A stretch of DNA of 64,000 nucleotides from Antennarius striatus. Its lineage: Eukaryota; Chordata; Actinopteri; Lophiiformes; Antennariidae. Below the pieces are notes generated by a model. It was given only the letters and a program-made list of their open reading frames with translations, ran no database searches and had not been told where the DNA came from. The DNA lies in contig NC_090783.1 in NCBI RefSeq assembly GCF_040054535.1, forward strand, positions 7,212,001-7,276,000, in the 5' to 3' direction. Shown here piece by piece: positions 506 to 60,618 of this stretch (position 1 is its first letter; every line of letters starts with the position of its first letter). The position numbers were made by a program, and so were the translations under genes.

Positions 506-2882
506 GTGGCTGCCAGAGTCGGCAAGGTGGCTCATAGCCAATGGAAAGCACGAGCAAGCTCATACGTACTTGAAGAGATGCGCCAAGATGAACCAAGCAG
601 AGAATTTCATGGAAACAATTAAAACGGAGGTCAGTATTCAAAATGTTTTAGAATTCAATAGAACAAACAGATATCAGTTAGTTTGAAATCGTGCAAATTA
701 ATCATTTCTGATGTGCTGTTATGATTAGTAATCCTGTTCATTACTAATTGTACTCTACATTTTGAAGACATTATCTGCCATTGTTATGACTGAGAAAAGA
801 CATCAGACCTATTCCTGTCTTGATCTGATGAGAACACCCAAAATGAGGAGACTGGCCATCTACACTGGTTTAATGTGGTGTGTATTCACTTAACAGTTGT
901 ATCAATTACAGGTCTCAGGTTACACATCTTATTTTTTATTATTGTGGCCAGTGAGTTCTAGATTTTGTAGAATACAATTGAATAGTTGACTACAATTTTG
1001 AACTGAGTTTCCATTTTCTCCTCCCCCAGGTTATGCGTGGTGACCTCATATTTTGCAATCAGTTTCCACATCACAGGCTTCTGGTTGGATATATATTTTA
1101 CACAGTTTGCTTATTCTTTGATAGAGATCCCATCAAAAACAGTACTTTATTTCATACTGGATAAGATAGGCAGAAGATCAACAGTGGTGGGAACTCAGCT
1201 GATGGTTGCAATCTGTCTTGGAGTCAACATTTTACTACCTAAAGGTAAACACTTCCAGACCTTTAGCTAAGATTTAGGATATTTTGTTGGTTTAAAATGT
1301 CCCATACTTGTAATAACAAGACATTACAGTATTAATACATGGTAGCAAACAACACAAGGAATTCAAATCATACAACATATTTCAAAAAGAGTCAGGGCCC
1401 TACAGAATGTAAATAGAATGTAATGACTATGCATCAAATAATGATAATGAAAAGTGTCATTTAAAAATAAATAAATTAGAATTTCAACTTTTTTGTTGGC
1501 AAGAGGCTTTAAAAAAGTTGGAACAGTGGCATCAAAAGCCACCAGTGAAAAATTTATTATTTTAGCTTGTGAAAAAAATTGTAACATGATTGGTTATTAA
1601 AATTAGAGCATCACAGTAATGGCATCGGAAACCTGCACATTTATATAGGTTCCTTTAATGTTGCATGATAGTTTATAGAGTTTGTTTCTAAAAAACAGGC
1701 TACTTCATTACAAAATCTTTATTTCTTGGCCTATCATCCACCCATCCATCCATCTATCCATTGATCTATCCATCTTCGCTTTTCTGCCTTGCTGGTCATG
1801 GGTCTGCGGGAGCCTACCCCAGCTAGCTACTGGCAAGAGGTGGGGTATACCCTGGATGCATCGCCAGTGCATAACGGGGCCACATGAAAAACAAACAACC
1901 GCTTACACACACCCACACCTAAATTGGAGTGACTAATTCACCTAAGCTGCATGTTTTTGGAGGTCGAAGGAAGGGGACAACCTGAAGAGAAGTCATGCAA
2001 ACATGGGGAGAACATACACAGAAAGGTATTGAACCCAAAACCTGAAAACACCATTGTTCTGCCTCTTGGCCCGTCATAAAACATAAAATACAACAAAGGA
2101 AATCTCAAACAGAGCAGCTGAAGTCTTATGTAAGGCAAAAATGGGAAATACTTCCTAAATCTTCCTAAATGCTTACAGAGTGCTGCTGAAGATATGATCC
2201 AACACTGAGGTAAACCTGACCCTGACCCAACAAATTTGTGTCATTTTTCTGTTTTAATAATTTGCGCTGTTACATAATGGAGTTTCAGTGATTCACGAGT
2301 CATTTCATACTGTTTTAACTTAAAGTTGACGTAGTGGTCTAAGTTTTTCTGGAAATGGATTTGCAACAAAAAGAGCTGCTGTATTAAGAAACAACTGATT
2401 CTGCTTTTGTCCTGTTTCCAGATAAGTCTTTGGTCATAACAGTGATAGCTGTTATTGGGAAAGGCTTTTCTTCAGCAAGCTTTGCAACTGTGATGCTCTA
2501 CACAGCGGAGGTCTATCCCACTGTAGTAAGGTGAGTCACAATTTCCGTTTCATTTAAAACAGCACAATCATCAGATGGTTTTTTTTATATCTTACAGTAA
2601 TGTAAGCATCGTAGAACACAGAAAATCTAGCATCCTCTATGTCTATGTGTACATCTTTTGTCTGGATTTAGGCAGATTGGTACGGGTTACAACAACGGCC
2701 TGGGTCGATTGGCCATCGCTGTGGTCCCGTTCATTCTCTTGCTGGAAGAGGTGTGGAAGGAGCTACCCCAGGTTGTGCTGTGCTGTGCGGCTCTACTGGG
2801 GACAATATTCACCAGAATGCTGCCAGAAACCTCCAACAAGTGCATGCCAGAGACCATAGATGATATAGAACAGCAGAGATAG
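506..2882 (+). CDS. slc22a7: SLC22A7/OAT2-like organic anion transporter, 5'-truncated by window edge (exons 5-9)
   Basis: This is the C-terminal half of an SLC22 major-facilitator anion transporter. Exons are 506-629, 768-877, 1030-1244, 2422-2530 and 2672-2882; lengths and phases match the complete copies, so the join is open to the TAG at 2880-2882. Exon 5 carries WLPESARW, exon 7 the TM7-TM8 region ending in DKIGRRSTVVGT, exon 8 the TM10 region with a variant AEVYPTVVR (other copies mostly AELYP), and exon 9 TM11-12 and the LPETSNKCMPETIDDIEQQR tail. The TM8 lysine (IPSK) and TM11 arginine (GRLA) expected for OATs are present. Intron 7 (1245-2421) is expanded by a SINE at 1735-2043. A poly(A) signal AATAAA is at 3202-3207. 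The exon 6 donor is GTGTGT. Family assignment is firm; the choice of SLC22A7 over another OAT rests on the C-terminal pattern and remembered human OAT2 sequence. Confidence 0.9.
1735..2043 (-). repeat. tRNA-like SINE fragment, reverse orientation
   Basis: The text reads like the reverse complement of the better-preserved SINE at 13060-13420: it has the tail with CCATCCATCC, then GGGAGCCTACCCCAGCTAG, the CAGTGCA block, and GCATGTTTTTGGAGGT followed by GGGGAGAACAT. It is diverged and sits in intron 7 of the left-edge gene. Confidence 0.7.
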
Positions 2883-6166: not shown

Positions 6167-8040
<1,874 letters not shown>

Positions 8041-8290
8041 GTTGCTTTGATTGGTTGCCACATAAAGTTCTGCGCAGGTTTCGACATAAAAGTTGCTGAA
8101 TATGCAACGTCATAGTCATTCCAAACCAATGACAAGCAGATTAGAGCAGATCGTTGCGTCATCGTGATACGGTTTGGGAAAATTGACGTCCTGGTCTTGT
8201 CGATCTGTGCTGCTTTTTTGTTTTGTTTCTTGATTTCTTTTCTTTCTTTCTTTTTTTTTGTTTTTTTTGTTTTTATATTGTCAGGTCACA
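8041..8290 (+). promoter_or_regulatory. Putative promoter and 5' UTR of copy A
   Basis: An inverted CCAAT box (ATTGG) lies at 8050-8054, followed by a half CRE-like TTGACGTCC near 8182 and a T-rich leader immediately before the ATG. The CCAAT spacing (about 240 bp) is longer than in the other copies, and the proximal sequence does not obviously align with theirs. Confidence 0.4.
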
Positions 8291-8779
8291 ATGAGATTCG
8301 AGAGCGTTCTAGCAGCAATAAAAGGATTTGGAAGATTTCAGAAGATGATCCTCGCAATGTGCTTTTTTGGCCGCTTCTCCATTCCCTGTCACTTCATGCT
8401 CAACAACTTCATCGCGGACGTTCCTTCTCACCACTGTGACTTCAGCTCTTTGGACGATGGAGGTGTTTTTAGGAATTTATCCATGGAGGAGAAGCTTGTT
8501 GTTAGTATTCCTGTCCAGGAGGATGGGACTCCGAGCTCCTGTCGAATGTTTGCAGAACCTCAGTATCACCTGCTGCAGAACTCCTCCAACTCTCCTGACG
8601 CACGGACGGTGCCATGTCAGACTGGATGGGTGTACGACAACACCACCCTCAGGTCTACTGTGACCTCACAGGTGACTGACGTTCTCTTTAAGAACAAAGT
8701 GCACATGTTCACAATATCAAATCAAACTGTAATATAATGAATAGGTTATTATTGTATTATTATTAGTATTAGTATTACA

Positions 8780-8833
<54 letters not shown>

Positions 8834-11800
8834 ACATTACAACATATTGATTATAGTGCACTGGCAAGTAACACAATAAACCAGTTGTCAGTAACAATCT
8901 GTGAACACAGTGACCAGGTTAATTGCACGTATAACTGTCAAAAGGTTTGAATGGTGATAAGGTGCAGCGTTGTGATGATCTTTATGATCTGAAGTTTAAA
9001 TTAAACACCAACAATGTGTTAAATTAACACTATATTAACAGTTTAGTTGTCTGTGAGCGTTGTTCTCAAGGTGTTCTTAGAAAAACCCAAAAGTTTGTTC
9101 ACACAGAACCACAATCATCCACGAGTCCAACTTGCATCAAATCACAGTACAGTCAACCATTTACAGATCACACAGTGACTCATTTCAAATTATCTCGCAC
9201 ATTGTCTCACAGTCCGAAATTGCTGAACAACTCTGCACATTGCTTGGGGTTTCCAGCCCTCTTATCCCTTCTGCTGGGGTGCATCCTGTTGGTATGAACA
9301 CAAGATGCAGAAAACATCAGCTTGAGATAACCTTTAAGTGTTTCAAGTTACTAGACACTGCAGTTTGCCATCCAGTGTCTCAGTGAAAAAAGAGTAAAAA
9401 TACAACTCTACTGAAATTTGAATTAAATTACTATTTAGGACAAATAAATTGAAAAGATCGTTGGGTGTCTCTTGTCAACCACATTCTACGTTTTTATACA
9501 CATTACACTTATTATATATGAATGACTGTGGGTTTTTTTTTTTAAAGTGGGACTTGGTGTGTGAAAGAAGAGGGAAAAATAAAGCAACTGCCACCATCTT
9601 CTTTATCGGAGCGATGATTGGAACCGTTATTTCTGGAAGCCTGAGTGACAGGTGGGTGTATTTGCTGATCAATTGCTGATATTTTGCTTACAACTTTGAT
9701 TACCTGGCGCTTCAAATGATTATTAAAATCTAACTTAAATCCCTCATAGGTTTGGCCGACGGATCATAATCCTGTTGTCCTACCTGTCAGTGATGTTCTT
9801 TGGTTTTGCCAGTGCTCTCTCTACTTCCTATGTGATGTTTATGGTGCTGCGATTCTTCACTGGGTTATGTATATCTGGCATCCTCATCATTGCAGCAACC
9901 CTCAGTAATTATTTACTTTAATATCAGTCAAAAACTCAACTTTTTGTTCACCTGAGAAGGGACTAAATGCAGGCCTACAGACATTAAAACATCTCACGTA
10001 TTTTCAGGATTGTAATTTTTGTAAAGTAAAGAGGTGTTTCCTGTTTGCAGCTGTGGAGTGGGTGGACATTGAACACAGGAAACTGGTGGGAGTGATCGAC
10101 AGCTTGGCCTGGACATTTGGTAGTGCAGTGTTTGCAGGAATTGCTTACCTGGTGACTGACTGGCGGTGGCTGACTGTCAGTGTCACCTCACCTCTGATCT
10201 TGATCTTGATCACCTCGTGGTAAGACTGAAAAAATGCTCTTTTAGACCATCATAATGGAGTAAACCCTAACAGGGATGTGTCCTGATTTGAGTTGATGCT
10301 TTACCAGATTATCAATGGGAAAATATTGTTTGCACGCAAAAATAGTGTGTAGTAGGCAGTAGTGAACCAAGAGTTATTTTGTGGTATAAAATCAAATGCA
10401 GAAGAGTAACTACAAAATTAAGAGAAGCGTAAAATCATTCACAGCAGATGAATAAAAACTACTGGAATGAACTACAAATTAAAAAGAATGCTCCCTTTAA
10501 GATATGTGGTTTTAATGTAAATATGCACTGGTATATTAACGATTAATACATTGTACAAAAAATGTTTTTGCCGTCAACATTAGGTGGCTGCCAGAGTCAG
10601 CAAGGTGGCTCATAGCCAATGGAAAGCACGAGCAAGCTCATATGTACTTGAAGAGATGCGCCAAGATGAACCAAGCAGAGAATTTCATTGACTCAATTAA
10701 AACGGAGGTTAGCATTCATTATGTTTCTTAACTCAATAGAGAAAGAGAGAAATCAATGGGTTTGTGTTACACTGTTATGATTAATAATCCTGTTCATTTC
10801 TAATACTGCTCTGAATTTTGAAGACATTATCAGACATTGTTGTGACTGAGAAAAAAGATCGGACCTATTCCTTGCTTGATCTGATAAGAACACCCAAAAT
10901 AAGGAGACTGGCCCTCGGCACTGGTTTCCTATGGTCTGTATTCACCAAACAGATGTATGAGTGACTCTAGGTCTTAGATTACACATGTCTTATTTTAATT
11001 ATTATGGAGAGTGAATCTTAAGACATACAGATGAAAACTTCTGACTTAACAGATTTCAATTGATTTTCCATTTTCTCTTCCCCCAGGTTTTGTGTGTCAA
11101 CTACATATTTTTTCATCAGTTTCCACATTACAGGCTTCTGGTTGGATATATATTTCACCCAGTTTGCTTATTCTTTGATTGAAATCCCAACAAAAATAGC
11201 ACTTTATTTTCTACTGGATAAGATAGGCAGAAGACCAACAGTGGTGGGAACTCAGCTGATTGTTGCAATCTGCCTTGGAATCAACATTGTATTACCTAAA
11301 GGTAAACACTGACATTTTTTGTTGGTTTAAAATGTCACAGTGTTGCAATAACAAGAGACTGCAGTGTTAACACATGGGAGCAAACAGCACAAGAAATGAA
11401 AGCACTATAAATAACTGCAAAAACGGTCACTACTTCTGTCCTGTTTCCAGACATGTCTCTGGTCATAACGGTGATAGCAGTTATTGGAAAAGGATTTTCT
11501 TCAGCAGGGTTTGCCACACTTGTACTCTACACTGCAGAGCTCTATCCCACTGTAGTAAGGTAAGCAGTCATGCTTTCCTTTTCCTTTAAAAGAAAAGATT
11601 GAACAGTGGGTTTTTTTGCTACCTTACGTTAATAAGAATAAGATATTATCCACAGCTAGCCTCCCGTGTTGCTGTTATCTATTATCAGTTATCTTTATTT
11701 AGGCAGATTGGTCTGGGCTACAACTCCTTCTATGGTCGAATTGGAACAGCTCTGGCTCCTTTTATTCTCTTACTGGATGAGGTATGGACGGAGCTACCCC

Positions 11801-11913
11801 AGACTGTGCTGTGCTGTATAGCCTTACTGGGGGTAATAATCACAAGAATACTTCCAGAAACACGCGACAAGTGCATGCTGGAGACCATAGACGACATTGA
11901 GCAACAGCGGTAG
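8291..11913 (+). CDS. slc22a7: SLC22A7/OAT2-like organic anion transporter, copy A
   Basis: Predicted 525-residue, 12-TM solute carrier; the family moves organic anions and related metabolites across plasma membranes of kidney and liver cells. Coding exons: 8291-8671, 9548-9651, 9750-9904, 10051-10219, 10584-10707, 10824-10933, 11087-11301, 11451-11559, 11703-11913; all join in frame. The ATG at 8291 starts MRFES, aligned with the MGFEE start of OAT2; the in-frame upstream ATG at 8258 gives a T-rich leader and is unlikely. Residues 36-127 form the large extracellular loop, with Cys49, Cys84, Cys109 and sequons N62, N97, N117. The MFS motif GSLSDRFGRR is at 157-166, PESARW at 273-278, the TM8 lysine in IPTK at 384, and the TM11 arginine at 468. 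Unlike copies B-E the tail keeps a final Arg (DIEQQR). The exon 6 donor is GTCTGT. Intron 1 holds an (ATT)n run. Confidence 0.93.
8779..8832. repeat. (ATT)n microsatellite in intron 1 of copy A
   Basis: Pure trinucleotide run. Confidence 0.95.
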
Positions 11914-14226: not shown

Positions 14227-17040
14227 CAGTAAACTAATACAAACATTTAACCCACAGTAAATGTTCTTTCACATGTTAACGCTAATATGAGAGATCATAA
14301 CTCCTCTTGAGGTTCCGGAATCACAACGTGACTCTCTGCAGGTGCATCAAGATGTGAAATACTACATATTCCCCACCTCTGCAACATTCACGTATTTACC
14401 TATTTCAATTAATAAATAAGGTTTTCTAATGACATCCAAGTTGCACCAAAAGCCACACAGCAGTTCTTTCTATCATATTACTTAAGTTATAAATATTCCC
14501 TTCATCACAATGTAAATGCAGCAACACTGTAGTTATGCATTTTGGGGCTCCATCAAAGGGAAGTAACAGGACAGGAATTCTTTAAGGGGCAGTCAGATTT
14601 CAGCTGGGCCAGTGCCCATCCAGTTCCACCTGTGGATCAGCCTATGTACCATATACTGTCTAATCTTGTCTGTTCACCTGCATGAAGACTTCAGCAGAGG
14701 ACTCGTGGATGGTGATGTGGTAATGTCTCCTGGAAAGCTCCAACGTCAGAGGCTGCAGTGGTCCATTTTCCTGGCAGATTCTATCAAACAATGTCAGCAA
14801 ACATCAGTGAACAGTAGTTAATAAAAATGATCACTTCTGGTTATGTGACCGGGTCAGTCACGATGGGGTGAGTGCATCTTTAAAATGTGTTACATACGTG
14901 TACTTTTAAGGTAGAGCATCATATGATTGTAATAGGTTATTACATCATAACATGTTTTTATTTGTATGATGTGATCATTTTCATGCAGTCATTTATTTTT
15001 TAACTACAGTCCCTAAAGGGCACAGAGACTGAAAAACACCAGCCTGCAATCACAGAATGAGCGACACGTGTGCACATTGGAGTAAGACTGAAACTTCAAG
15101 GCACAAGTAGGTTAGGTTAAGTTAGTGAACCTACCCAGCCACATAAAGACCAGCAGAGGTTGATATTATGTTAGTCTCTGGTGATGATGGTGATTTCAAT
15201 CATTTTCATTTCCAGGGTGATGTCAGTCATTGTTGTAGTCTGCAGCTGATCCAAAATGGAGTAGCCAGAGTAATGAACAGAAAAGATTGCTCTACAATTG
15301 TTCCACCAACTGTAGACTATTGTCTATTTATGATATGAGTATGATTATACTCCACTTTATTCCATGTCCACTGATTCGTCTCTCCCTGATGGTGACCTAG
15401 ATCTGACTGCATTGGAACTTGATCTGAATCTGGATGGCTCACTCATCGCAGGCGATCCTACAGCAGCTGCTTTTTCTCTGTGAAGAAAATCACAGCCAAA
15501 GGTCAAACCCCAGGCATACATTCCAAACCTCTATACAAAATTGCTCAATAGTCCATCTGATTTTGAATGGTTTACTTTTGTAGAATTGTTAAATTGTTAA
15601 AAGAGCTGTGTCACAAAGACACCAAATTATTCAACCACCTATATCCAACGGCGAGAAAGCCAGTCTATTCAAATTACAGTTGATAAAACTTATTGATCTT
15701 ATTTAAGACATAAGGCTTCCACTTAAGGCAAAACACTCTTTCCCAAACTTAAAAGCATTTGTTATAATTTTTTGGCACCACATCTTTCTGTCAACAGTTT
15801 ATTGACACTTACTCTTAGAGAGACGTTCCTGTTCTTGTACACAAACAAGGACTGCAATCACATGCCAACTGATATGGATTAATGAAGGTGAAAACATTGT
15901 GTTGCTGCATCCAACTCTGTCACTGTTTGTTATGATTCCAGATAAGAATTGTTTGATGGTTGGGACCTGATTGATTTTGAATGATCAAAAGGGGTTAAAT
16001 ATAGTGACAATTTTCCTGACTGTGTTAGATGTGAAAATACTGATCTGTAACTTTCCTGAAGTTTTTGGCAATTTTCAAGGTGGTGAGATGATAAAGTATT
16101 CCTGAGAATGTTTGCAAAGTACACCAGAGAGAAACCAGTGAACAGACAACTCACTGTGCCTTGTTTTGAACTGTTCAAATTAAATCTAATGTTGATTCCA
16201 TTTTGGGAGATTATACATTTTTTTCATACCACTCAGTCAAGCAGACCTCACAAAGATAATGGATAGCCCCGGATGAGTAATATTTTATGCTTTAATTAGA
16301 GACCACTAAATACATTTCTGCCAATGCCTCAAAATCTGAACAATCAGAAAAAAAGTATTTGACCGTCTCATAACAAAAAATTCTGGAACATTTTTTACAC
16401 TCTAACAAATTGCATTAGCAGATGAGCTATATATAGGGTACATCAAAAGACTATAGTGACATCTCTGTGATGTTGCTTCACTTGGATCTGCATCATGCAA
16501 ACTATGTGAAACCATAGACTTACTTTCAGGAATAATGTGTTTAATCGGTAGTTAATATAACAATAGTTCATAACAATAATAATAACAGTAATAATAATAT
16601 GACTTTCAATGATCACAGCTCTGGTTTGAGATCTGATTCCTTAGCTTTCACATACTTGAATCATTAAAATTTCATAAGCTCAGCTGCATATTGGTGGCAT
16701 GCCATGCCTCTACCCTTCCCCCTGTAAACACTCCACTAACAAATGTAACTGTGTACAGCAGCTTGACTGATTCATTGATATAAGCTGCAGATGACATGAA
16801 ATACAACACAGTTGTGGTGCAATGAAATTAATACTCAATACATATACATGTAGTGTGAATCTTGTTTTACAAAGGCATAGACAAAAGTTATATTGGTTTT
16901 TCACTGAAGTAAATCATTAACTATATTATCATCCTCAATAGGTCAAAGGTGTGTTCTATTGCTTTGATAATGATGCAATTCCTACTATGGCATAGACAAA
17001 ACTCAATCTGCATATAGAGAAGCTTGCTGGGAAGTAAGTT
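14227..17040. other. Spacer upstream of copy B, no gene seen
   Basis: No transporter exon or clear element. 16090-16180 resembles 7530-7630 upstream of copy A. Open frames here are short and unconvincing. Confidence 0.5.
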
Positions 17041-17218
17041 CTGTACATTAGGATTTTGTTGTTGTTCTGAGCCAATCAAAGGAGGAGAAGAGCAGTTCTT
17101 GACGTCAACATAGTAGGATTGATAAATTTATCAGGTTGGCAAAGACTGAAGAAAGGACTGTTGTTGTTTTTGAAACTTTTCAGAGGAAGGCTTCTCAGTG
17201 TTGTATTGTCAGTCCACA
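17041..17218 (+). promoter_or_regulatory. Putative promoter of copy B
   Basis: A CCAAT box at 17072-17076 (GAGCCAATCAAAG) is followed by TTGACGTCAAC (CRE-like) at about 17099 and ATAGTAGGATTGATAAAT. The same order CCAATCA..AG, then A(G/C)AGTAGGAT, is seen upstream of copy E (57305 on) and of the relic (40129 on), so it is a conserved proximal region. Confidence 0.5.
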
Positions 17219-20200
17219 ATGACGTTTGAGAGTATTCTACAAGGAATTAATGGATTTGGAAGATATCAGAAGATGATCGTTGTCATGTGCTTCATTGGCC
17301 GCTTCTCCATTCCCTGTCACTTTATGCTCAACAACTTCATCGCGGACGTTCCTTCTCACCACTGTGACTTCAGTTCTTTGGATGATGGAGGTGTTTTTAG
17401 GAATTTATCCATGGCGGAGAAGCTTGTTGTTAGTATTCCTGTCCAGGAGGATGGGACTCCGAGCTCCTGTCGAATGTTTTCAGAACCTCAGTATCACCTG
17501 CTGCAGAACTCCTCCAACTCTACTGACGCACGGACGGTGCCATGTCAGACTGGATGGGTGTACGACAACACCACCCTCAGGTCTACTGTGACTTCACAGG
17601 TGACTGACGTTCAAACCGAAGTCTACAATAGCAATCGTTTTTGTTGGTTTGGCTAGGGTTGTAGCTTCTCCTTTCAGGGGCCGTAAGCAAAATCTGTTTT
17701 TGAGTTCTATCTTTTCTCTAATCTTGTTCTATTTTCATTTTATGTTTATAAACGTTAAGGAGGCCTAGTGATAATTTGCTATTTAATGTTGAATTTTGTA
17801 TTGAATATAGTGTAGTGACAAGTAACACAATAAATCAGTAGAACATACACACTATATACTGTCAAAATAGATCAATCAATTATTCCATCATATTGTATTT
17901 GTGTAATCCAAATTCATAAACGATAATTTACCTCTGAGGTTTTTATAATCTGTACAGAATAACACCCTCTACGTTAAGACCCTCGAACCAGTTGAGGAAA
18001 GACTCAATAAAGTGAAGAGGGGGTTCATGTTTTCTATTTATTGGCATTATCGTTATATTCTCATGTTTGTGCCAGAACCATGATCGTAGGTCTTATGTTT
18101 TAATAAACGGAATTACATGTGGCAACACTGGATTATGGATTTCATCTGTGGGCATCACAGTAATGATCCTACTTACATGTATACGGCCATTTTTTGTCAG
18201 TTACAGAAATCACGACAACTTAGTCAGCATAAATATTTGAAGTCACATCACAACTTAATGGACACAATTCTGCTTTGGCTGTATCACATGGACGACTTGA
18301 ATTTGGAGTCAGGATTGAGTAGACTCTGTTGGATTGATTTTGTGGACCTCTTAGATTTCAGAGTGTCATTTGGATGGATGTTGCTGAAAAATGTAGATTG
18401 ATTTCCCTCTTCAGTCACAACTGAGTCACTGTTGACTGCTGGTCCACTGGAAACCTGCTTGATGACAGACGTACATCACAACCATACCAAGCGGTAGGCC
18501 ATATATTTATTCCTTTAGTGTATTTGTTGAGAGCTAAACACAGTTTGGAAGCACTGTCACCATTTGGTTTGGCTTGCATTGTGTGTAATGAGAACTGGTG
18601 AAAGGTTTCAGCTGGTTTGACTGCTTGTTCCATGGTTAACACCAGGCTACATTGATGTGAATAATCACAATGTTGTGAGATTGAGTCGTGGAGACACTGT
18701 AAATGTGGTTTAACAAATGCTGCTAATGATGAAAGAATTTCTGAAAAAATTTCAGATAACTTGTGTGTCCTGATGTGTTCATCTGAAGGCTTACATTTGG
18801 TAACTTCATTGTGTGTAGTGTGTAAATAAAAACGGTAAATAAGGGAATATTTATGTACATCTTTGACTGTCTTAAATATCGTTGTTGACTGTGGGCCCTC
18901 CGATATGTTCACTTTATCACATTATCAGGTTTAGACACCCCTGACTTATGCATTGTATGTCTATCCATGCACTTAGCAGGAGCATGTACAATTCAAGCAA
19001 ACAAAATCTTCAATTTATTAACCTTAATGATTTCTTTGGTTGAGTCTTGTCAAAAAAAACCCCAGCATATCCTTTTCTTTGTGCGGTTTTAGACAATGAG
19101 GATGATTAACGGTAATCACACATTGACATCACTGATCACTAGTGTTTTATTAAACCTGTAGCAGTAAAGTGATTGTTAAATGCAGAAAAAACAACTGAAA
19201 ACTGCTAAGTACATGTCATCAAGCTTGGTAAATTTAAAGCTTCTCTTTTTCCTAGTGGGACTTAGTATGTGACAGAAGGGCCAAAAATAAGGCAACTGCT
19301 ACCATCTTCTTTATTGGAACAATGATTGGAGCCATTACTTTTGGAAGTCTGAGTGACAGGTGGGCCTGTTTGAAGCTAATTTATTATATTCAGCCTCTAA
19401 ATTTGATTACCTGGCGCCTCAAATGAGCATTAACTTATAACTTGAATCCCTCATAGGTTTGGCCGAAGGAGCATGATGCTGCTCTCCTACGTGTCTACAA
19501 TGCTCTTTGGTTTTGCCAGCGCTCTCTCTACTTCCTATATGATGTTTGTGGTGCTGAGATTCTTCACTGGGTTTTGCATCATTGGAAACCTCATCATTGC
19601 AGGAGTTCTAAGTAGATTTATACTCTCATTTTTATTAAAAACTTAACATTCATCTGACAAGGGACCAAGTGAAGGCCTACAGACAATAAAATATCTAAAG
19701 TATTTTCCGAATTGTGATTTTTGTATAGTGAAGAGGTGTTACTGTTTGCAGCTGTGGAGTGGGTGGACATTGAACACAGGAAACTGGTGGGAGTGATCGA
19801 CAGCCTGGCCTGGACTTTTGGTAGCACAGTGTTTGCAGGAATTGCTTACCTGGTGACTGACTGGCGGTGGCTGACTGTCAGTGTCACCTCACCTCTGATC
19901 CTGGTCATCATCACCTGGTGGTAAGACTGAAAAAATGTTCTATTATTTAATCTGATGCTTCCTACAGTAAACTCTGAGAGAGATGTGTCCTGATTTTAGT
20001 TGGTGTTTATTAATTGTGTAGGTTGTGGAGATTATGATGGGGACAAAATAATTTGAAAACTAATATTTTCAAAACACAAATTTGATTAGACATGTTACAA
20101 CTATTACTTGTTGATCTCACTACAGTTAAATGGTTGTACAAGTTCAAATGCTCATAGGCAAATATAACATGAAGAACAACTTAATTTAAAGAAGTTTAAT

Positions 20201-21768
20201 GGAATCGACCACACAGAGATGGCAATTGTAAGTTTTTTATGACGACACTGTCATTTTTTAAAAAGTATTTTTATTTTTAACATTTTTCATCCAAGGCCAG
20301 ATAAGACTGGATACCAGGTAAATTCAAATACGCTATTTTAAAAAAAACAAAAACAAATGTGCCATATAATTCCAAACCATGTAATGCTTCCTTCAACATT
20401 AGGTGGCTGCCAGAGTCAGCAAGGTGGCTCATAGCCAATGGAAAGCACGAGCAAGCTCATATGTACTTGAAGAGATGTGCCAAGATGAACCAAGCAGAGG
20501 ATTTCATTGACTCAATTAAAACGGAGGTTAGCATTCATTATGTTTCACAATTTAATAGAACAAAACAGGAGTCAGTGGGTTTAAAATCTTCCAGATTAAT
20601 CTTTTCTGATGTGCTGTTGTTAGTAATCCTGTTCATTATTGATTGTTTTCTGAATTTTGAAGACATTATCAGACATTGTTGTGACTGAGAAAAAAGATCG
20701 GACCTATTCCTTGCTTGATCTGATAAGAACACCCAAAATGAGGAAACTGACCCTGGGCACTGGTTTACTATGGTCTGTATTCACTGAAAACATTATTTCA
20801 ATAATTTTCAATTCTAGATTAAATGCGACTTACTTCTAATGTTGTGGCCAGTGAATTTTAAAGGTAAACAGGGGAATAGTTCTGACCTGACAGAATGTTA
20901 ACTTCAACTTCAGTTTCCCTTCCCCCCCCCTCCAGGTTTTGTGTGTCAACGACATGTTTTGCCATCATCTTTCACATCACAGGCTTCTGGTTGGATATAT
21001 ATTTCACCCAGTTTGCTTATTCTTTGATAGAGATCCCAACAAAAATATCACTTTACTTCTTACTGGATAAGATAGGTAGACGATCCACAGTGGTGGGAAC
21101 TCAGCTGATTGTCGCAATTTGTCTTGGAATGAACCTTTTCCTACCTAAAGGTAAACACTGAACGACCTTTAGCTAATATTTATAATGCGTTTTTGATTTA
21201 AAATGTTGTGATAACAACAGACGACAGTGTTAATACATGGTAGCAAACAGCACAAATAATTCAAGTATTAGTATTATTGAACTCTGTAACACACATTACT
21301 GCTGCTACATCTGTCCTGTTTCCAGACATGTCTCTGGTCATAACAGTAATAGCTGTTATTGGAAAAGGATTTTCTTCAGCAGGGTTTGCAGCTATGATTC
21401 TCTACACTGCAGAGCTCTATCCCACTGTAGTAAGGTTAGTAGTTCTGCTTTCCCTTTCATTTAAAAAAAATAAATTCTGCCTTACATCAATTAAAATATC
21501 CTTAAAATGATGTTAGTCTCCTCTGGTGCTTAGTTTGATATTTTTTGTTGTTGTTTTTAGGCAGGTTGGTACTGGTTACAACAACTTCCTGGGTCGGTTT
21601 GGAACAGCTGTGGCTCCTTTCATTCTCTTACTGGATGACATGTGGGCCGACCTACCTCAAGCCATGCTGTGCTTTTTGGCTTTGCTAGGGGTAATAATTG
21701 CCAGAATGCTGCCAGAAACCTCCAACAAGTGCATGCCAGAGAAGATAGATGATATAGAGCAGCAGTGA
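17219..21768 (+). CDS. slc22a7: SLC22A7/OAT2-like organic anion transporter, copy B
   Basis: Predicted 524 residues from nine exons: 17219-17599, 19256-19359, 19457-19611, 19752-19920, 20403-20526, 20663-20772, 20936-21150, 21326-21434, 21561-21768. All phases join and the frame ends at TGA after DIEQQ. The start MTFESILQG is used; an upstream in-frame ATG at 17198 would add seven residues (MLYCQST) and is not conserved. The extracellular loop has sequons N62, N97, N117 plus a fourth at N100 (NST) absent from A, C and D. The MFS motif GSLSDRFGRR is at 157-166, PESARW at 273-278, TM8 lysine 384 and TM11 arginine 468 are kept. Exon 2 begins WDLVCDRRAKN where the others have ERRGKN, making it the most diverged copy there. 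Intron 1 (about 1.66 kb) holds a repeat of the GGTGTC family on the minus strand. The exon 6 donor is GTCTGT. Confidence 0.93.
18400..18945 (-). repeat. Interspersed repeat with GGGGTGTCtaaac end, reverse orientation
   Basis: Its reverse complement aligns with 24235-24440: GGGGTGTC.AAA, GATAATGTGA..AA.GTGAAC, then AAATGTAAGCCTTCA.ATGAACACAT. It carries a 165-residue open frame on the minus strand (18415-18912) with no domain I recognise. The family is unidentified and may be a non-autonomous DNA transposon. Confidence 0.6.
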
Positions 21769-25499: not shown

Positions 25500-26239
25500 T
25501 TTTCCCAAATTATCTGAGTTTAATGCTTGGACATAAAAGGACAATGTAGTGACAAAGCAACTACATTATAAACAGCATGACGTGACGTCATTGCCCAAAT
25601 CGTGACGTGAGCATTATGTTTATATTGAAGTGTCCAATAGAAATATGAGAAGAAGAGAGTTTGGAGGAACCATCTCAAAACATAATTCCGTCTTCATTGT
25701 AATTTGATCCTATTCTGGTCAAGGATGATGGAAGCAAACCTCCTTTCAGATGTTGGTAGACCCAAACATCATGTAGCCACGGAGGTCTGTTGGACGGAAA
25801 CTATTTTTTGTAATTCTCTGTGTGTAAAATATCAGGAAGATTAAAATGATCTCACTGACAGAAACATGTCCACATGTCATTCCTCTCTTTCAGTGGATCA
25901 AACACATTCACGGTGGCCTCTTGAATGCTGTCATACTTTCATTCAAATCCTGCAGCGCAATGACACTGAAAAACTAGTGTATTTCATCTGTCGGTGATGT
26001 TAAATATTAACTTCTTGTCGATGAGGATATTAGGAATCCTACCATGGCAAAAACAATAACCCGCATTACAACACTGTACTGTAATATGTTTATTTTGCAT
26101 GTCGCGTAAAAAACGTGCCAACGTCAAGAGAACCAATCACAGTCCGATCGGAGAATTTGCGTCCCGGTCTCAGTCAGGACTGGAAGGAAGAGAGGCATTC
26201 TGTTTTCAAAGGCAGACGTGCACGTATCCGTAGTCCACA
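25500..26239 (+). promoter_or_regulatory. Putative promoter region of copy C, duplicated upstream of copy D
   Basis: From AGTTTAATGCTTG at about 25520 to the ATG this aligns with 42742-43550 upstream of copy D. It holds a perfect CRE, TGACGTCA, at 25583-25590 (mutated to TGATGTCA in D), and a CCAAT box at 26133-26137 about 107 bp before the ATG in the shared block AACGTGCCAACGTCA.GAGAACCAATCA. The leader GAGGCATTC..GTTTCAAAGGC is also shared. Confidence 0.55.
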
Positions 26240-37169
<10,930 letters not shown>

Positions 37170-39904: not shown

Positions 39905-40401
39905 TACTGCAATAAAGTTCACATAGTAATTCACAGTGGAAAAGTCAAAGGTTAATTCACTGTCAGTACAATATTAACTTATATGTCATCTAGAAAAGAG
40001 ACAAGTTGTTTCATCTGCTCTCGCCAATTTATGATCCTACTATGGTGAAGCCATGAATCGCCCTGTATAACAAAAATCTGCCTTCAAAAGGTGGGTGTAC
40101 AGTAAATCTGTGACAGTGTCATGGTTTTTCTGAGTCAATCAGAGTTAAGAGCAAGACGGATCATAGCATCAACACAACAGAATGAGTAGATTATGGTTTT
40201 TATGTCAGATTATACTGGTTACAGCAACTTCCTGGTCAATTTGGTAACAGTTGTATCTCCTTTCATTCTCTTACTGGATGAGGGGTAGGCCAACCTACCT
40301 CAAGCTGTGCTGTGCTCGGTAGCTGTGGTGGGGGTAAACGTCACCAGTATGCTGCCAGAAACAAGTGCATGCCAGAGAACACAGATATAGAGCAGCAGTG
40401 A
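39905..40401 (+). pseudogene. Collapsed slc22a7-like copy: upstream region fused to last exon
   Basis: 39905-40203 aligns with the promoter region of copy E (57080-57385): GTCAGTACAATATTAACTT, CCTA.TATGGTGAAG, GTACAGTAAAT, a CAATCAGAG block, and GATCATAGCA.CAACACA. At about 40204-40212 it changes abruptly to exon 9 sequence (ACTGGTTACAGCAACTTCCT... to TGA at 40399-40401). Exons 1-8 are gone. The exon 9 part has an in-frame TAG (GAGGGGTAG, about 40280) and small deletions, for example in the LPETSNK codons. Its 3' UTR most resembles that of copy B. The junction could be a deletion using a short CAG microhomology. Confidence 0.88.
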
Positions 40402-40473
40402 CAGTCAACTCAATCATTTTTGATTCATGACCTTTCGTGGTATTGTCACAGATTTGTAAAATATGTATTTTAC

Positions 40474-42719: not shown

Positions 42720-43550
42720 TTTCCCTCAGATTTAAATCCCAGTTTAATGCTTGAATATAAAAGGATAATTTAGTGACAAAGCAACCACATTCGAACAGCA
42801 TGACATGATGTCATTACCCCAATCTCAACATGAGCATGATGTTCAAATTGAAGTATCCAGTGTAAACATGAGAACATAACAGGTTTCTTCGAAATTCCAT
42901 GAATTTGAAAGAAACCTGTCTCAAAATAAAATTCCATATTCATATGGAGTATTGTAATTTGGTACTATTCTGGACATGGATAATGGGAAGCAGACTTGTT
43001 AGATGTTGGTAGGAGGTTTGACCAACAATGTCTTGAAAGAGGGTTTCATGAACACCAACTCCAAACATCATGTGGCCACTGAGATGAAGATAGTTTATCT
43101 GTTGGACGTTAACTATGTTTTGTTCTTTTCTGTGTGTAAAATATCTGACAGATTAGAATGATTTCTCTGACAAAAGCAGATGTTCACGCGTCATTCCTCT
43201 CTGTCAATGGATCAAACACATTCACTAAGGCCTCTAGAATGCTGTCATACTTTTATTCATATCCTGCAACGTTGTTGAATGTCAGTGAAAAAAAATCATT
43301 TAACGTTACAGTGAAATAAAATATTAACTTCATGTAAATGAAGAAATTACAAATCCTACTATGGCAAAACAGTAACCCGCATTACATGACGCTAATTTGA
43401 TCATGTTGCTGTCGCGTAAAAACGTGCCAACGTCATGAGAACCAATCAGAGTCGGGTCGGGGAATTTGCTGTCCAGGTCTCAGTCAGGACTGGAAAGAAG
43501 AGAGGCATTCCGGTTTCAAAGGCAGACGTGCATCTAATCCGTAGTCCACA
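42720..43550 (+). promoter_or_regulatory. Putative promoter region of copy D
   Basis: Aligns with 25500-26239 upstream of copy C. The CCAAT box is at 43442-43446, about 109 bp from the ATG, within AACGTGCCAACGTCATGAGA. The CRE of copy C is degraded here. Confidence 0.55.
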
Positions 43551-48608
<5,058 letters not shown>

Positions 48609-49635
48609 TATGGGACCCAACTGTTTCACAAGTTTCCCCTGCATGGATTTCACCTAGTAATTTACATGTCTGAGATTAGTTTGCGTTTTATGACAAAGGT
48701 CTCTTTTGTCAGGATTTACAATCCTTTGCAAAAATATTTTCCTGAATAGTTGGGGCCTACTGTTTTTAGGTGAGTCACGTTCAGTTGTGTTCTGTTGTAG
48801 TAATATGCCAAAAGGCTGACAACCTGATGACCACATAAACGTCTTGAATGTATTTAAGTGATTTTTGTTTCTCAAACACCCAAGCACCCTGAAGGTATTT
48901 TGGGTTGTATATCGGTCATTGCCTGACACTATCATGGCAGGTAGCTGGCCACCAAGTACAACAGTTACGTTCCTTAATTAAAGAAATAAAACGGCAGAAA
49001 GAATTTATTTGTGACTTGTAGTCAGCTGCAGTAAAGTTACCTCTGAGTGTGAGGGTAAGAGATCATGCTTCTGCTGAGGTGGCAGAGTTTAAAAAACAGG
49101 AAACTTAGGTCATATCAGTGAAATACCTCACTATATTTAGACAATTAAACAGAACTGTAAACCTAGACAAATTTACAAAGTGTTGAAATATTTTATGTGC
49201 ACATTTCCCTCAATGAGTTTGCAGTTGCAGATTTGCAAAAGAGGGGGTTGCGTCACAATATATTGCAAAATATTGATAGATAACTATAGAATGTATAATC
49301 TATATATCTGGGACCATGTGGATTTCCAACAGATGTTCTCCAGTATTTACGGTGATTGGGATGTAGTTCAGTGGATTATTTATCAGAAATATCAACCTCC
49401 TGCCAGTTTTTCCCCGTGCATCTCTTCCAAGTTAGGGCCTTTGCAGATGCAATAACATTGTTAGTTATCTTAGTTATCTATTTAATGCTGGATTGTGAGC
49501 ACTAATTCAACCATGGAGGCCACAGCATGAGAGAATTCGACAAACAGGTATGGCCTTGGACTGTCGAAGCAAGAAACTGTCTTATTGAACATTTGTCACG
49601 TAGGGTCTGCTGGACCTGGGCTTGTCATGAACTTC
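48609..49635. other. 3' flank and spacer after copy D
   Basis: The first 350 bases align with the 3' flank of copy C (TTTCACAAGTTT..., GTAATATGCCAAAAGG, CAAGCACCCTG.AG.TATTTTGG). No gene was found in the rest. Confidence 0.5.
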
Positions 49636-54251: not shown

Positions 54252-55385
54252 TTCTACCTGTCTCCCTGATCACATTAGCTGTAGTTGTCCAGTCATCTGG
54301 ATGCACCTCCTGACCACCCAGAGCCTGTCTTAACTCTTTCCTAAAAGTCATGCAACACTCTTCCTTTTTCAGCTTCCACTATTTCGTCCTCTGCTCTGTC
54401 TTTGCCCTCTTCATCTTCCTCACCACCTCGCTACACTCTCGCCTACCACTACTTTGCAATCACTGATCTCCTTCAGATTACACCGTCTACACAAGATGTA
54501 GTCTACCTGTGTGCTCCTACCTCCATTCTTATAGGTCACCTTATGTTGCTGCATCTTCTGGAAGAAAGTATTCACTATAGCTGTTTCCATCCTTTTTGCA
54601 AAGTCGACCACCATCTGTCCATCTGCATTCCTCTCCTGGATACCAAACCTACCCATCACCTCCTCATCACCTCTGTTTCCTGCACCAACATGTCCATTGA
54701 AGTCTGCACCAATGACATGACAACTCTCTCACTTCTAGGTATGCTCTGCATCACTTCATCAAAGTCCAGCCAGAATCTTTCCCTCTCCTCCAGCTCACAT
54801 CCTACCTGTGGAGCATACCCACTAACAACATTGCACATCACACCTTCGATTTCTAGCTTCAGACTCATCACTCTATCTGACAGTCTTTTTACCTCCAGGA
54901 TATTCCTAACAAACTCTTCCTTCGAGATGAGTCCTCCTCCAATTCTGTTCTGATCTACACCATGATAGAACAACTTGAACCCTGCTCCTACACTTCTAGC
55001 CTTGCTACCTTTTCACCTGGTCTCCTGGACACACGGTATGTCTACCTTTCTCCTCTGCATTGTGTCAACCAACTCTCTGCCTTTTCTTGTCATAGTTCCA
55101 ACATTCAATGTCCCTCCTCTCAGTCTTATACTCTTGGCGTTCCTCTTCTCTCTCGTCCTACGAACACACTTTCCTCCTGACCTTCTTCAACCAACAGTAG
55201 TCCAATTTCCACCAGCACCCTGTAGGTGAATAGCACTGACGGTAGTTGTTGTTAACTCGGTATGGAAGTCATATTCGATTCACATATTGGTTTGGCAAAA
55301 GTTTTACGTCGGATGCCCTTTCTGACACAACCCTCTATTTATCTGGGCTTGGGACCGGCACAATAGGACACTGGCTTGTGCCCTC
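54252..55385 (-). mobile_element. RTE-like LINE, 5' part with endonuclease
   Basis: Minus-strand frames 54656-54973 (QNRIGGGLISKEEFVRNIL, VVSGYAPQVGCELEERERF) and 54420-54659 (GRFGIQERNADGQMVVDFA, STQVDYILCRR) are the endonuclease of the RTE-like element whose RT half lies at 49636-51348. Upstream the 5' region includes CTGGGCTTGGGACCGGCACA. Confidence 0.85.
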
Positions 55386-56310: not shown

Positions 56311-57060
56311 CTGAACTTCCGAGTAGATGCCAGAAGGTGACAGCGTGAGGTTTTCAAGGTAGCGTATTCAAATATATAGGTGGGGATATAAACGTTGGTG
56401 CAATACAAGTGAAGTTGAAGACATAAAAGCCTATGAGATATTTAAGGTGCTATTGAGATATTAAAAAGATTGGTCTGACAGACCAAATAGTTCATTTGTA
56501 ATCCATTTCTTTCAATATATGTCCCACATGATGACGACCACCTATGGATTTGTACTTTTATATACCATTTCCTAACTGAATTCAGGATTTCTGGATTACG
56601 CACAATCACTGTGGTCATGTAAAAGCTATAGTCTCTAGAACTTGAGCAATAATAAAAATGTATCCAGCCTACGTATAAGCACAATGCTGTTACTATCCTG
56701 ACATGGTAACCAAATAAATAAGCACAACAATTGTTACGCCATGGCACCCAAGGCAGAGTACATGTTTCTATGGTACTATTGTGTCATGATGTGACTTAAT
56801 TTGGATTTGCTTCCTGCAAAATGAGGTAATACCATCTCATTCATGAACCATGGAGTATTGGAACTGTGTCTTGATAACCACCAGTTTATGAGTAACCAAT
56901 AATTTGATATCCAGTAATGTCAGGATTGGATTGAAAGCCGATTCACCTTTACATATTTCAATGACTGAAGAAGCATAATCTCAGTGTCATACTGTTGGCA
57001 GTGACATGTCTCTACCTTTTCTATTCTTGCACTAAACCCTTTTGAAACTTCAATGATATA
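56311..57060. other. Spacer upstream of copy E, no gene seen
   Basis: No recognised element or exon. Confidence 0.45.
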
Positions 57061-57079
57061 TTTATTATGCAATAAAGTG

Positions 57080-57442
57080 ACTGTACAACCCATTTATGAC
57101 TCAGTCCACGCATGGTTTCACTGTGGTTGAGACAAAGGTTAAAGTCAGTACAATATTAACTTGTGTGTTATCCTGAAAACAAGGTGGTTGTTTCTTTTCT
57201 CTCATTGCCAAGATAAAAAATCCTATTATGGTGAAGTCATAACTTGCTTTTTATAACAAGAAAAGTGGATGTACAGTAAATGTGTCACCGCCTCATCATC
57301 TGAACCAATCAGAGGTAGAGCAGGGCAGATCATAGCAGCAACACAGTAGGATAGGTAAATTCAGGTTTTATGTGCCAGTCAAGTTTGCAAAGAGTGATGA
57401 CAGATTTTCTGGCAGACATTTTACATGTATTGGTAGCCCACA
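57080..57442 (+). promoter_or_regulatory. Putative promoter region of copy E
   Basis: A CCAAT box lies at 57305-57309, about 138 bp from the ATG. The region aligns with 39905-40203 of the relic and, near the CCAAT box, with copy B. Shared words include GATCATAGCA.CAACACA and GTACAGTAAAT. Confidence 0.5.
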
Positions 57443-60400
57443 ATGAGGTTCGAGAGCATTCTAGCAGGAATTAATGGATTTGGAAGATTTCAGAAGATGA
57501 TCCTCGCAATGTGCTTCATTGGCCGCTTCTCCATTCCCTGTCACTTCATGCTCAACAACTTCATCGCGGACGTTCCTTCTCACCACTGTGACTTCAGCTC
57601 TTTGGACGATGGAGGTGTTTTTAGGAATTTATCCACGGCAGAGAAGCTTGTTGTTAGTATTCCTGTCCAGGAGGATGGGACTCCGAGCTCCTGTCGAATG
57701 TTTGCAGAACCTCAGTATCACCTGCTGCAGAACTCCTCCAACTTTACTGACGCACGGACGGTGCCATGTCAGACTGGATGGGTGTACGACAACACCACCC
57801 TCAGGTCTACTGTGACCTCACAGGTGACTGACATTTATTTAAATTGTACAACAAACAAACTAAAGTGTAAATGTCCATCTTTTTTTGTTGTTCTTTCGAG
57901 AAACGGTGGAACCATAACCAGTATTTGATTTTCTATTGTCAGTTTTGGATCATTCATACACTAAATCTAACAGATGCGTTGTTGTAATTAGCTAAATGTT
58001 AATTTGGTTTTCAGTTTGGCTTGTTTTTATCCTTTCATTGTTTCAAACAAGTGGGACTTAGTGTGTGAAAGAAGAGGGAAAAATAAAGCAACTGCTACCA
58101 TCTTCTTTATCGGAACGATGTTTGGAGCCATTACTTTTGGAAGTCTGAGTGACAGGTGAGTCTTTTTACTGCTTGGTTGCAAATATTCCTCTTCAATCTA
58201 TGATTACATCAAAGGAAATGTGAAATGTAATTTGAATCCCTCATAGGTTTGGCCGAAGGCGCATGATCCTTTTGTGCTACGTGTCTACAATACTCGTCAG
58301 TTTTGCGAGTGCTGTCTCTGCTTCCTATGTGATGTTTGTGGTGCTGAGATTCTTCACTGGGTTTTGTATCACGGGCATCTTTATCATTGCCGGAGCTCTC
58401 AGTAATTATACATTTTGATTTAGGTTGTAAACTTAAAATTTTGTTCACCTGAGAAGGAACCAAAAGTAGGTCTACATAAAATAAAATATTTCAAATCTAC
58501 AAAGTTTCCTCAAAATTGTGATCTTTGTAGTGAAGACATGTTTCTTGTTTGCAGCTGTGGAGTGGGTGGACATTGAACACAGGAAAGTGGTGGGAGTGAT
58601 TGACAGCTTACCCTGGTCAATTGGTAGCACTTTATTTGCAGGAATTGCTTACCTGGTGACTGACTGGCGGTGGCTAACTGTCAGTGTCACCTCACCTCTG
58701 ATTGTGGTCATCATCACCTGGTGGTAAGGCTGAAAAGCAACTCTTTTAGTCCAACTGATGCCTCCAACAGTAAACCCTTGCAGGGATCTGTCCCTGAGTT
58801 GCTGCTTAGCGCACAAGTGAATATAAAACATAGAGCAGCACATAGTCATAGAGAAAAACAGATTTGGCAAATCACACATTCATTTTCCTGACCATCCGCT
58901 TTCGCGGGTCGTGGGGAGCTGGAGCCTGTCCCAGCTGGAATAGGGCGTGAGACGTGGCACACTCTGAGCACGAAGCCAGTGCACCGCGGAGCTACACAGA
59001 GACAGACAGCCATGCATACACACACTCACTCCCATGGGCAATTTGGAAAGGCTAATTAACCTGAAGTACATGTTTTTGGAGGTGGGAGGAAGCCGGGGAA
59101 CACGGAAAGAACCCAAGCAGACACAGGAGAACAGGCAAACTTTGCACAGAGTGGGACCGTGACGCACAAATCACACAGTACTCCTGAAAATGTCTTTGAC
59201 TTTTGTGAACTTTTTTCATTTACATTTTGATAAGACTAGACGACAAGGAAATGTAAATATGCTTGATACCTTTAATCTTCATTTTCTGAACCTTTAATAA
59301 CTTGTAAAAAAATGTCTTCAACATTAGGTGGCTGCCAGAGTCGGCAAGGTGGCTCATAGCCAATGGAAAGCACGAGCAAGGTCTTATATACTTGAAGAGA
59401 TGCGCCAAGATGAACCAAGCAGAGAATTTCATTGACACAATTAAAAAAGAGGTTTGCATTCAAGATGTTTCATAGTTCAATACAACAAAAGAGATGTCAG
59501 TGAGTTTGAAATTTTCCAGATTACAGTTTTCTGTTTCATTGTTATGATTACTAATTCTGTTAATTTGTAATACTGCTCTGAATTTTGAAGACTTTATCAG
59601 ACATTGTTGTGACTGAGAAAAAAGATCGGACCTATTCTTTTTTTGATCTGATAAGAACACCCAAAATGAGGAGACTGGCCCTCAGCACTGGTTTATTGTG
59701 GTCTGTATTCCTTATATCATCATTCAAAGGATTTTAGATTTTGTTTTAGGAAGATACAGATGAAAAGTTTTGTTAATTTTATCTGATTTTACATCTTCTC
59801 TTTCCATAGGATTTCTGTTTCAGCTTCATATTTTGCCATCAGCTTCCACATCACAGGCTTCTGGTTGGACATCTACTTCACCCAGTTTGCTTATTCTTTA
59901 ATAGAGATCCCATCAAAAATATCACTTTACTTCTTACTGGATAAGATAGGTAGACGATCCACAGTGGTGGGAACTCAGCTGATTGTCGCAATTTGTCTTG
60001 GAATAAACATTTTACTACCTAAAGGTACACACTGACAGACCTTTAGCTAACATTTATGATATTTTTTTTAATATAAAATGTCACAGTGTTGAAATAACAA
60101 GATTATTGTATAAACACATCAGAGCAAACAAAGAATTTGATTACTGTAGGATCATTAATGAACTCAGTAACTGCAATAAACATTAATGCTGCTACTTTTG
60201 TCCTTTTTCCAGAGTTGTCTCTGGTCATAACAGTGATAGCCATCATTGGAAAAGGCTTTTCTGCAGCAGGGTTTGCAGCTCTTACACTTTACAGTTCAGA
60301 GCTCTATCCCACTGTATTAAGGTATGTAGGAATACAGTAACAACACAATCACCAATTTTTTATTATCCACACCAACGATGCTAAGACCAATATCTTTTGT

Positions 60401-60618
60401 CTTTATTTAGGCAGACTGGTACTGGTTACAACAACTTCCTGGGTCGAATTGGAACAGCTGTAGCTCCTTTCATTCTCTTACTGGATGAGGTATGGAAAGA
60501 CCTACCTCAAGCCGTGCTGTGTTCTGTGACTCTGCTGGGGGTTATAATTGCCAGAATGCTGCCAGAAACCTCCAACAAGTGCATGCCGGAGACCATAGAT
60601 GATATAGAGCAGCATTGA
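57443..60618 (+). CDS. slc22a7: SLC22A7/OAT2-like organic anion transporter, copy E
   Basis: Predicted 524 residues from the most compact copy: exons 57443-57823, 58052-58155, 58247-58401, 58555-58723, 59328-59451, 59591-59700, 59810-60024, 60213-60321, 60411-60618, all in frame to TGA after DIEQH. The start MRFESILAG is conserved. Loop sequons are N62, N97, N117 and an extra N100 (NFT). GSLSDRFGRR is at 157-166, PESARW at 273-278, Lys384 (IPSKISLYF) and Arg468 (GRIG) are kept. Variant residues include SLPWSIGS in TM5 (other copies LAWTFGS, LSWTFGS or LSWSVGS) and KKEV-type exon 5 end (IKKE for IKTE). Exon 7 starts WISVSAS where others have WFCVS or WLCVV. Intron 4 carries a SINE with an 11-bp target duplication. 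A poly(A) signal AATAAA is at 60849-60854. The exon 6 donor is GTCTGT. Confidence 0.93.
58879..59166 (-). mobile_element. SINE in intron 4 of copy E with 11-bp target duplication
   Basis: Reverse orientation of the 13060-13420 family (GGGGAGCTGGAGCCTGTCCC, CAGTGCACCGCGGAGC, ACATGTTTTTGGAGGTGGG). CAAATCACACA is duplicated at 58868-58878 and 59167-59177. Confidence 0.85.

Follow-up and report, generated by a model that had tools for sequence, protein, structure and literature searches.

Ectopic gene conversion in tandem gene families collapses divergence locally between paralogues and leaves sharp edges around the collapsed segment. Because introns diverge faster, such conversion is expected mainly in coding sequence (PMC1274310). 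Repeated conversion that homogenises the first exon or 5′ part of a gene while the rest diverges has been described for the chimaeric BEX/WEX/GASP genes of mammals, in which mainly the 5′ UTR and upstream DNA, and in some genes coding sequence, are homogenised (PMC1274310). Among fish, the RH2 opsin arrays of cichlids and medaka likewise consist of tandem paralogues with patchy conversion and divergence elsewhere; in a cichlid RH2 pair, introns 1 and 4 are similar, and the coding sequences are believed to be maintained as distinct (PMC3514295). A fish SLC22 cluster of Oat2 type is known from zebrafish chromosome 17, where oat2b–e (slc22a7b) lie together (PMC4982206). The main text of that paper uses the terms "gene conversion", "exon" and "intron" zero times each and does not treat conversion, and among the matches listed in the literature searched we recognised no paper describing conversion in an SLC22 array. 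In the window considered here, by which we mean the whole stretch of 64,000 nucleotides that was analysed, an SLC22 array shows a local collapse of both synonymous and total divergence in exon 1, with sharp edges and with branch lengths that do not match those found elsewhere in the gene. The explanation is very probably ectopic (interlocus) gene conversion, repeated in codons ~27/31–127 of exon 1 while the copies diverge elsewhere.

The window holds five intact SLC22 genes (copies A–E) of nine exons each, arranged head to tail in a tandem cluster (see the table). The exons of copy A were modelled by hand and the models carried to the other copies by alignment, with the ends of exon 4 in copy C and exon 9 in copy E placed by hand. 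In all five, the reading frame stays open until a stop codon late in exon 9. No exon is longer than exon 1, at 381 bp; the remaining exons measure 104–215 bp, exon 7 having 215 bp and exon 9 having 211 bp. The exon 1 copies are spaced ~9–17 kb apart and have distinct flanks, and the count of N in the window is 0. For a sixth copy, Z, of which exons 5–9 are seen, exon 1 had no match within the 64-kb window; it presumably lies upstream of window base 1, and copy Z, being without exon 1 in the window, was left out of every tract test. Copy C has an intron 7 of 6.8 kb, and in this intron and in the D–E spacer (30100–36700 and 49500–55000) the list of open reading frames shows, by eye, endonuclease- and reverse-transcriptase-like frames of retroelement type. 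Between copies C and D lies a degenerate exon-9-like fragment (40213–40401), which follows E-promoter-like DNA (73% identity to the DNA upstream of E) in what appears to be the relic of a further copy (39930–40402).

Genes, upstream regions and exon 1 segments of the array, in window positions
Feature	Positions	Strand	Description
Copy A gene	8291..11913	+	ATG to stop, nine exons, 525 aa
Copy B gene	17219..21768	+	ATG to stop, nine exons, 524 aa
Copy C gene	26240..37169	+	ATG to stop, nine exons, 524 aa
Copy D gene	43551..48608	+	ATG to stop, nine exons, 524 aa
Copy E gene	57443..60618	+	ATG to stop, nine exons, 524 aa
Copy Z (sixth)	506..2882	+	Exons 5–9 only
Copy A upstream 500 bp	7791..8290	+	CpG-rich, o/e 0.86, 97th percentile of window
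Copy B upstream 500 bp	16719..17218	+	CpG-depleted, o/e 0.06, 1st percentile
Copy C upstream 500 bp	25740..26239	+	CpG-rich, o/e 0.83, 96th percentile
Copy D upstream 500 bp	43051..43550	+	CpG-rich, o/e 0.82, 96th percentile
Copy E upstream 500 bp	56943..57442	+	CpG-depleted, o/e 0.12, 4th percentile
Copy A codons 1–30 (N-terminus, inner TM1)	8291..8380	+	Not homogenised
Copy A tract, codons 31–127	8381..8671	+	Identical to C and D
Copy B tract	17309..17599	+	7 differences
Copy C tract	26330..26620	+	Identical to A and D
Copy D tract	43641..43931	+	Identical to A and C
Copy E tract	57533..57823	+	5 differences

Full-length homology together with major facilitator models places the array in SLC22, as judged on copy A, the only copy searched in full. 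Copy A matches the SLC22A6 (OAT1) chain 9m9v_A over residues 1–524 (E=2.1e-102), a PDB entry that we take to be human OAT1, and it matches the Pfam models MFS_1 and Sugar_tr, both above cut-off. The large extracellular domain between TM1 and TM2 is present with its cysteines and sequons and aligns to that of OAT1; Cys 33, 49, 84 and 109 occur in all five copies, and there are three N-glycosylation sequons in A, C and D and four in B and E. Residue 468 is Arg in A–E and aligns with Arg466 in TM11 of OAT1, an arginine whose equivalent is described as present in all OATs (PMC10643130), which places the copies in the OAT subgroup. Residue 35 is Phe in A–E and aligns with OAT1 Asn35, the position at which OAT2 carries Phe (PMC10643130), so that this single residue is of Oat2 type. 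Zebrafish primer pairs taken from PMC4982206 gave a weak test of subfamily: among 15 pairs, those for Oat2c and Oat2d outscored all 100 shuffles on the five copies, those for Oat3 and Oat2b were marginal (equalled by 2/100 and 6/100 shuffles, respectively), and the other 11, including Oat2a and Oat2e, were reached by at least 25/100 shuffles. Because of the OAT1 match, Arg468, Phe35 and the primer results, the predicted identity of the cluster is likely teleost Oat2 (slc22a7b-like). At the position of OAT1 Lys382, a residue that engages α-ketoglutarate (PMC10643130), copy C carries Tyr (exon 7, 29765–29979) and A, B, D and E carry Lys.

The identity of copies A, C and D over the tract, first claimed in a sequence-only reading of this DNA, was confirmed at 291/291 bases; a recount returned the same five differences in E and seven in B, and the coordinates were right. 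That reading was also correct in reporting greater divergence of the first 90 bp and of the introns that follow, with 29/90 sites variable among the five copies in codons 1–30 and pairwise intron identity of 41%–87% where aligned (the 6.8-kb intron 7 of C left out). In the tract, 10/291 sites are variable, compared with 312/1185 in exons 2–9 (Fisher, 4e-22) and with the count in codons 1–30 (Fisher, 1e-12), and 291-nt coding windows starting past exon 1 hold a minimum of 52 variable sites. The per-segment comparison of synonymous divergence that had been proposed as a check gives tract values far below, and not equal to, those of exons 2–9: tract dS is 0 for A–C, A–D and C–D and 0.02–0.08 for the seven pairs that involve B or E, compared with 0.22–0.36 in exons 2–9 and 0.18–0.78 in codons 1–30. 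For the identical trio, dS in exons 2–9 is 0.36 (A–C), 0.36 (A–D) and 0.31 (C–D). At equal divergence the tract would be expected to carry 19.3, 18.9 and 16.9 synonymous differences in these pairs, and the probabilities of finding none are 1.3e-10, 2.2e-10 and 3.6e-9. Four-fold sites show the same collapse, 1/42 being variable in the tract versus 46/114 in exons 2–9 (Fisher, 8e-7). Outside the tract no copy is farther from C and D than A is (dS 0.36), yet A is identical to both within it. Tract dS and exons 2–9 dS have a rank correlation of −0.51 (P=0.13; 10 non-independent pairs), to which we give no weight as evidence. Third-position GC content is 0.56–0.60 in the tract versus 0.48–0.51 in exons 2–9, but exons 3, 4 and 5 are similarly high in some copies, and as a mark of conversion this content is suggestive only.

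The 3′ edge of the tract is exactly the splice donor of exon 1 (8671/8672, CAG/GT). The first four bases of intron 1 (gtga) are common to A–E, after which the intron start splits into gtgactgac in A, B and E and gtgaataac in C and D. Intron 1 is 189–1656 bp long and aligns poorly in most pairs. On the other side, the block starts at CDS 90 in D and at about CDS 80 in the other four copies. Abrupt boundaries on both sides had been described. The edges are indeed sharp, and the 5′ edge falls within TM1, because OAT1 Asn35, a gate residue that lies in TM1 (PMC10643130), aligns with residue 35. For the same reason the description of the tract as confined to the extracellular loop holds only in part: the loop is included, but so is the outer end of TM1 with the Asn35-aligned residue.

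Gene conversion requires a minimum length and identity of homology, and we propose that here it acts on one island of surviving homology in an otherwise diverged array. Exon 1 alone would be long enough, being the longest exon, to offer both the length and the identity needed for pairing, and conversion would then maintain both. Exon length as the sole cause is insufficient, as exons 7 and 9 are long yet not homogenised. The tract would end where homology between the copies ends: on the 3′ side because, past about +12, intron 1 has in most pairs diverged too far or been interrupted, and on the 5′ side because 8/10 pairs are already 13–22% different over the first 90 coding bases (8% in A–E and 11% in B–E). 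This present divergence is the sole account of why codons 1–27 are spared. Because the five copies had already diverged, at least four conversions would be needed, the most recent probably among A, C and D. Exon 1 would then represent the last array-wide island of concerted evolution, the rest of the array having mostly left such homogenisation behind. Selection that favours a shared loop may contribute to this process but would not be required.

A tract that was simply slow would be expected to share out its changes among the branches just as the rest of the gene does. In partitioned IQ-TREE analyses, unlinked branch lengths fit better than proportional ones (2ΔlnL 23.3, 6 df, P=7e-4; AIC 8078.5 versus 8089.8), whereas BIC favours the proportional model (8179.8 versus 8200.4). 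A uniformly slow segment is rejected by the likelihood ratio and AIC, though BIC disagrees. By parsimony, read by eye from the alignment, 10/10 tract changes are assigned to B, to E or to their common branch, and these three branches make up 35% of the tree length under the proportional model (0.35^10 = 3e-5), a figure tied to the choice of tree because the topology is unstable. The proportional model makes B and E sisters, exons 2–9 place E beside C+D (support 86), and B+E receives a support of only 55 from third positions alone; on the exons 2–9 tree, the states that B and E have in common at CDS 197 and 304 become discordant.

A GENECONV-style run-length permutation was applied to the five copies, a test whose power falls where all copies are alike. 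It finds an A–C run at CDS 80–402 (global P 2e-4), which is the only tract run that is globally significant. For A–D the values are 0.03 pairwise and 0.19 global, and for C–D the longest run lies outside the tract and is not significant. Restricted to silent sites, the test gives global significance for none of the pairs, the smallest value being 0.09. The test that the sequence-only reading had called for is thus strong for A–C and weak for A–D, but it returns nothing for C–D and nothing globally from silent sites. Runs were also seen outside the tract: between A and B in exon 4 (CDS 716–789, global 0.03; A 10051–10219, B 19752–19920), between B and E in exon 7 (CDS 1148–1238, global 0.02; B 20936–21150, E 59810–60024) and, marginally, between B and C in exons 2–3 (CDS 448–510, global 0.05). 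These runs suggest short pairwise conversion elsewhere in the array. For exon 1 itself, the repeated conversion that had been proposed is supported by the local collapse of dS, the likelihood-ratio test against proportional slowing and the identity of A, C and D.

What places the conversion in exon 1 could be the promoter. The copies with CpG-rich promoters are exactly the trio with identical tracts, A, C and D. In fish with truncated PRDM9, meiotic breaks would concentrate at CpG-island promoters and the nearest homologous sequence, exon 1, would be converted; A, C and D would keep converting, and B and E, having lost their CpGs, would have begun drifting. This version is compatible with ectopic conversion as set out above, for which it would supply the cause of the tract's location, and we hold it tentatively, as a possibility that may well turn out to be wrong. 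In its favour, beyond the coincidence of the CpG split with the identical trio, E has CA/TG at 10/26 ungapped columns in which A, C and D have CpG, versus 48/294 elsewhere (Fisher, 0.009), and B has CA/TG at 7/22 such columns versus 44/298 elsewhere (Fisher, 0.04), an excess that fits CpG decay. Recombination is reported to be enriched 3-fold at CpG-island transcription start sites in sea bass, which has a truncated PRDM9 (PMC11703093), and crossovers in swordtails are reported to increase near CpG islands and H3K4me3 peaks (PMC5519329).

Several observations weigh against this promoter version. A 3:2 split among five copies matches by chance 1 time in 10, and the match was noticed post hoc. 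The DNA upstream of C and D is homologous (84%), so their promoters are not independent, and apart from C–D the promoter alignments are poor (44–62% identity); when the relic is added to the alignment, B has CA/TG at only 5/27 columns. Codons 1–27, which lie nearer the promoter, are not converted, and the B–E tracts (dS 0.08) are still closer than the B–E exons 2–9 (0.22). In salmonids, which have full-length PRDM9, recombination is described as not concentrated at CpG-island promoters (PMC11703093), a pattern that would tell against the promoter version if PRDM9 of the present species were full-length. It is doubtful, though conceivable, that promoter CpG state decides which tandem copies remain in concerted evolution, with CpG loss as the event of escape. 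Purely as a hypothesis, CpG-island hotspots, as in truncated-PRDM9 fish, might drive conversion of the adjacent first exon only. If this were true, the 5′ exons of fish tandem arrays would be systematically younger than the remaining gene, and the recombination landscape of fish (PRDM9 loss, CpG-island hotspots) would be tied to the escape of duplicates from homogenisation. The promoter link is testable on existing genomes.

Conversion could instead be widespread in the array but retained only in the loop, with conversions in substrate-site exons purged and converted loops neutral or even favoured through shared trafficking, glycosylation or oligomerisation. The short runs in exons 4 and 7 described above suggest that conversion is possible there. 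When 16 OAT1 positions, among them cavity positions, were mapped onto the copies, 5/16 varied (S203, I226, Y353, K382 and F442), all of them outside the tract; the other 11/16 are invariant across copies, which counts against this reading. The 16 positions had been chosen in part from PMC10643130. The tract itself holds TM1 residues, including the OAT1 N35 gate position, and the number of sequons in the loop differs between A/C/D and B/E. Adjacent introns and synonymous sites have diverged too, an outcome that selection on the protein need not produce. We regard retention by selection as unlikely.

Much less probable still is that purifying selection on the loop, strong for protein and codons alike, has kept the copies identical without conversion. 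Such selection would have a rationale, as the extracellular N-glycosylation sites of OAT1 are reported to be essential for correct localisation (PMC10643130), and the preference of BIC for proportional branch lengths points the same way. However, proportional slowing is rejected by the likelihood-ratio test, and within the same protein neither codons 1–30 nor exon 2 is slow. The loop has average identity to OAT1 (36/97 in the tract versus 127/397 in exons 2–9), and by this alignment the loop is without special long-term conservation. No RNA structure was found in the copy A tract (z=0.28), and Rfam gave 0 matches at the gathering threshold in the 64-kb window. Among the tract changes, 5/10 are nonsynonymous, one of which, the Pro→Thr change at CDS 304, accounts for the fourth N-glycosylation sequon in B and E: codon 102 is Thr in B (17522–17524) and E (57746–57748), so that a sequon begins at their residue 100 (NST, NFT), whereas A, C and D carry NSP. 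The average OAT1 identity, the nonsynonymous half of the changes and the lack of RNA structure speak against the very strong codon and protein selection that the sequence-only reading had offered as its other option, and its suggestion that a glycosylated loop is held common is weakened by a sequon that B and E share and A, C and D lack.

A possible further point in favour of purifying selection is an open +1 frame of 93 codons that spans the copy A tract (8382–8660; P 0.032 versus synonymous resampling). This frame was one of five other frames tested. Similar open frames appear at the tract positions of B–E in the list of open reading frames. The open frame is probably due to chance.

An assembly artefact, in which a repeat was collapsed or falsely polished, is just as improbable as purifying selection. 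The exon 1 copies lie many kilobases apart, each in its own flanks; differences private to B and to E persist; codons 1–30 are distinct among the copies; and the tract stops precisely at a splice donor, in a window without N. Least probable of all is conversion by a cDNA reverse-transcribed from mRNA, which would explain the edge exactly at the donor but should, with a spliced donor molecule, extend identity into exon 2, where the copies differ per 104 sites by 9 (A–C), 11 (A–D) and 6 (C–D) and first differ at base 22 (A–C) or base 9 (A–D and C–D), an objection that only a cDNA ending near the exon junction would evade.

Overall, ectopic conversion is a process already known, and it is its sharp confinement to one exon that is unusual and instructive. 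The array is a natural case in which concerted evolution is largely over and persists in a single exon, where its edges can be placed to within a few bases. In clusters of this kind, trees or expression probes based on exon 1 would misjudge both the age and the identity of the copies. Compared with the usual conversion in tandem families, one exon here is homogenised across the array and eight are not, and in the five-copy comparison the 3′ edge lies at, or no more than 4 bases from, the splice donor. Like the BEX/WEX/GASP genes, this array is homogenised towards its 5′ end, but here the upstream DNA has diverged and it is the coding end of exon 1 that is homogenised. Unlike in the cichlid RH2 pair, in the present array the coding segment is alike and the introns differ.
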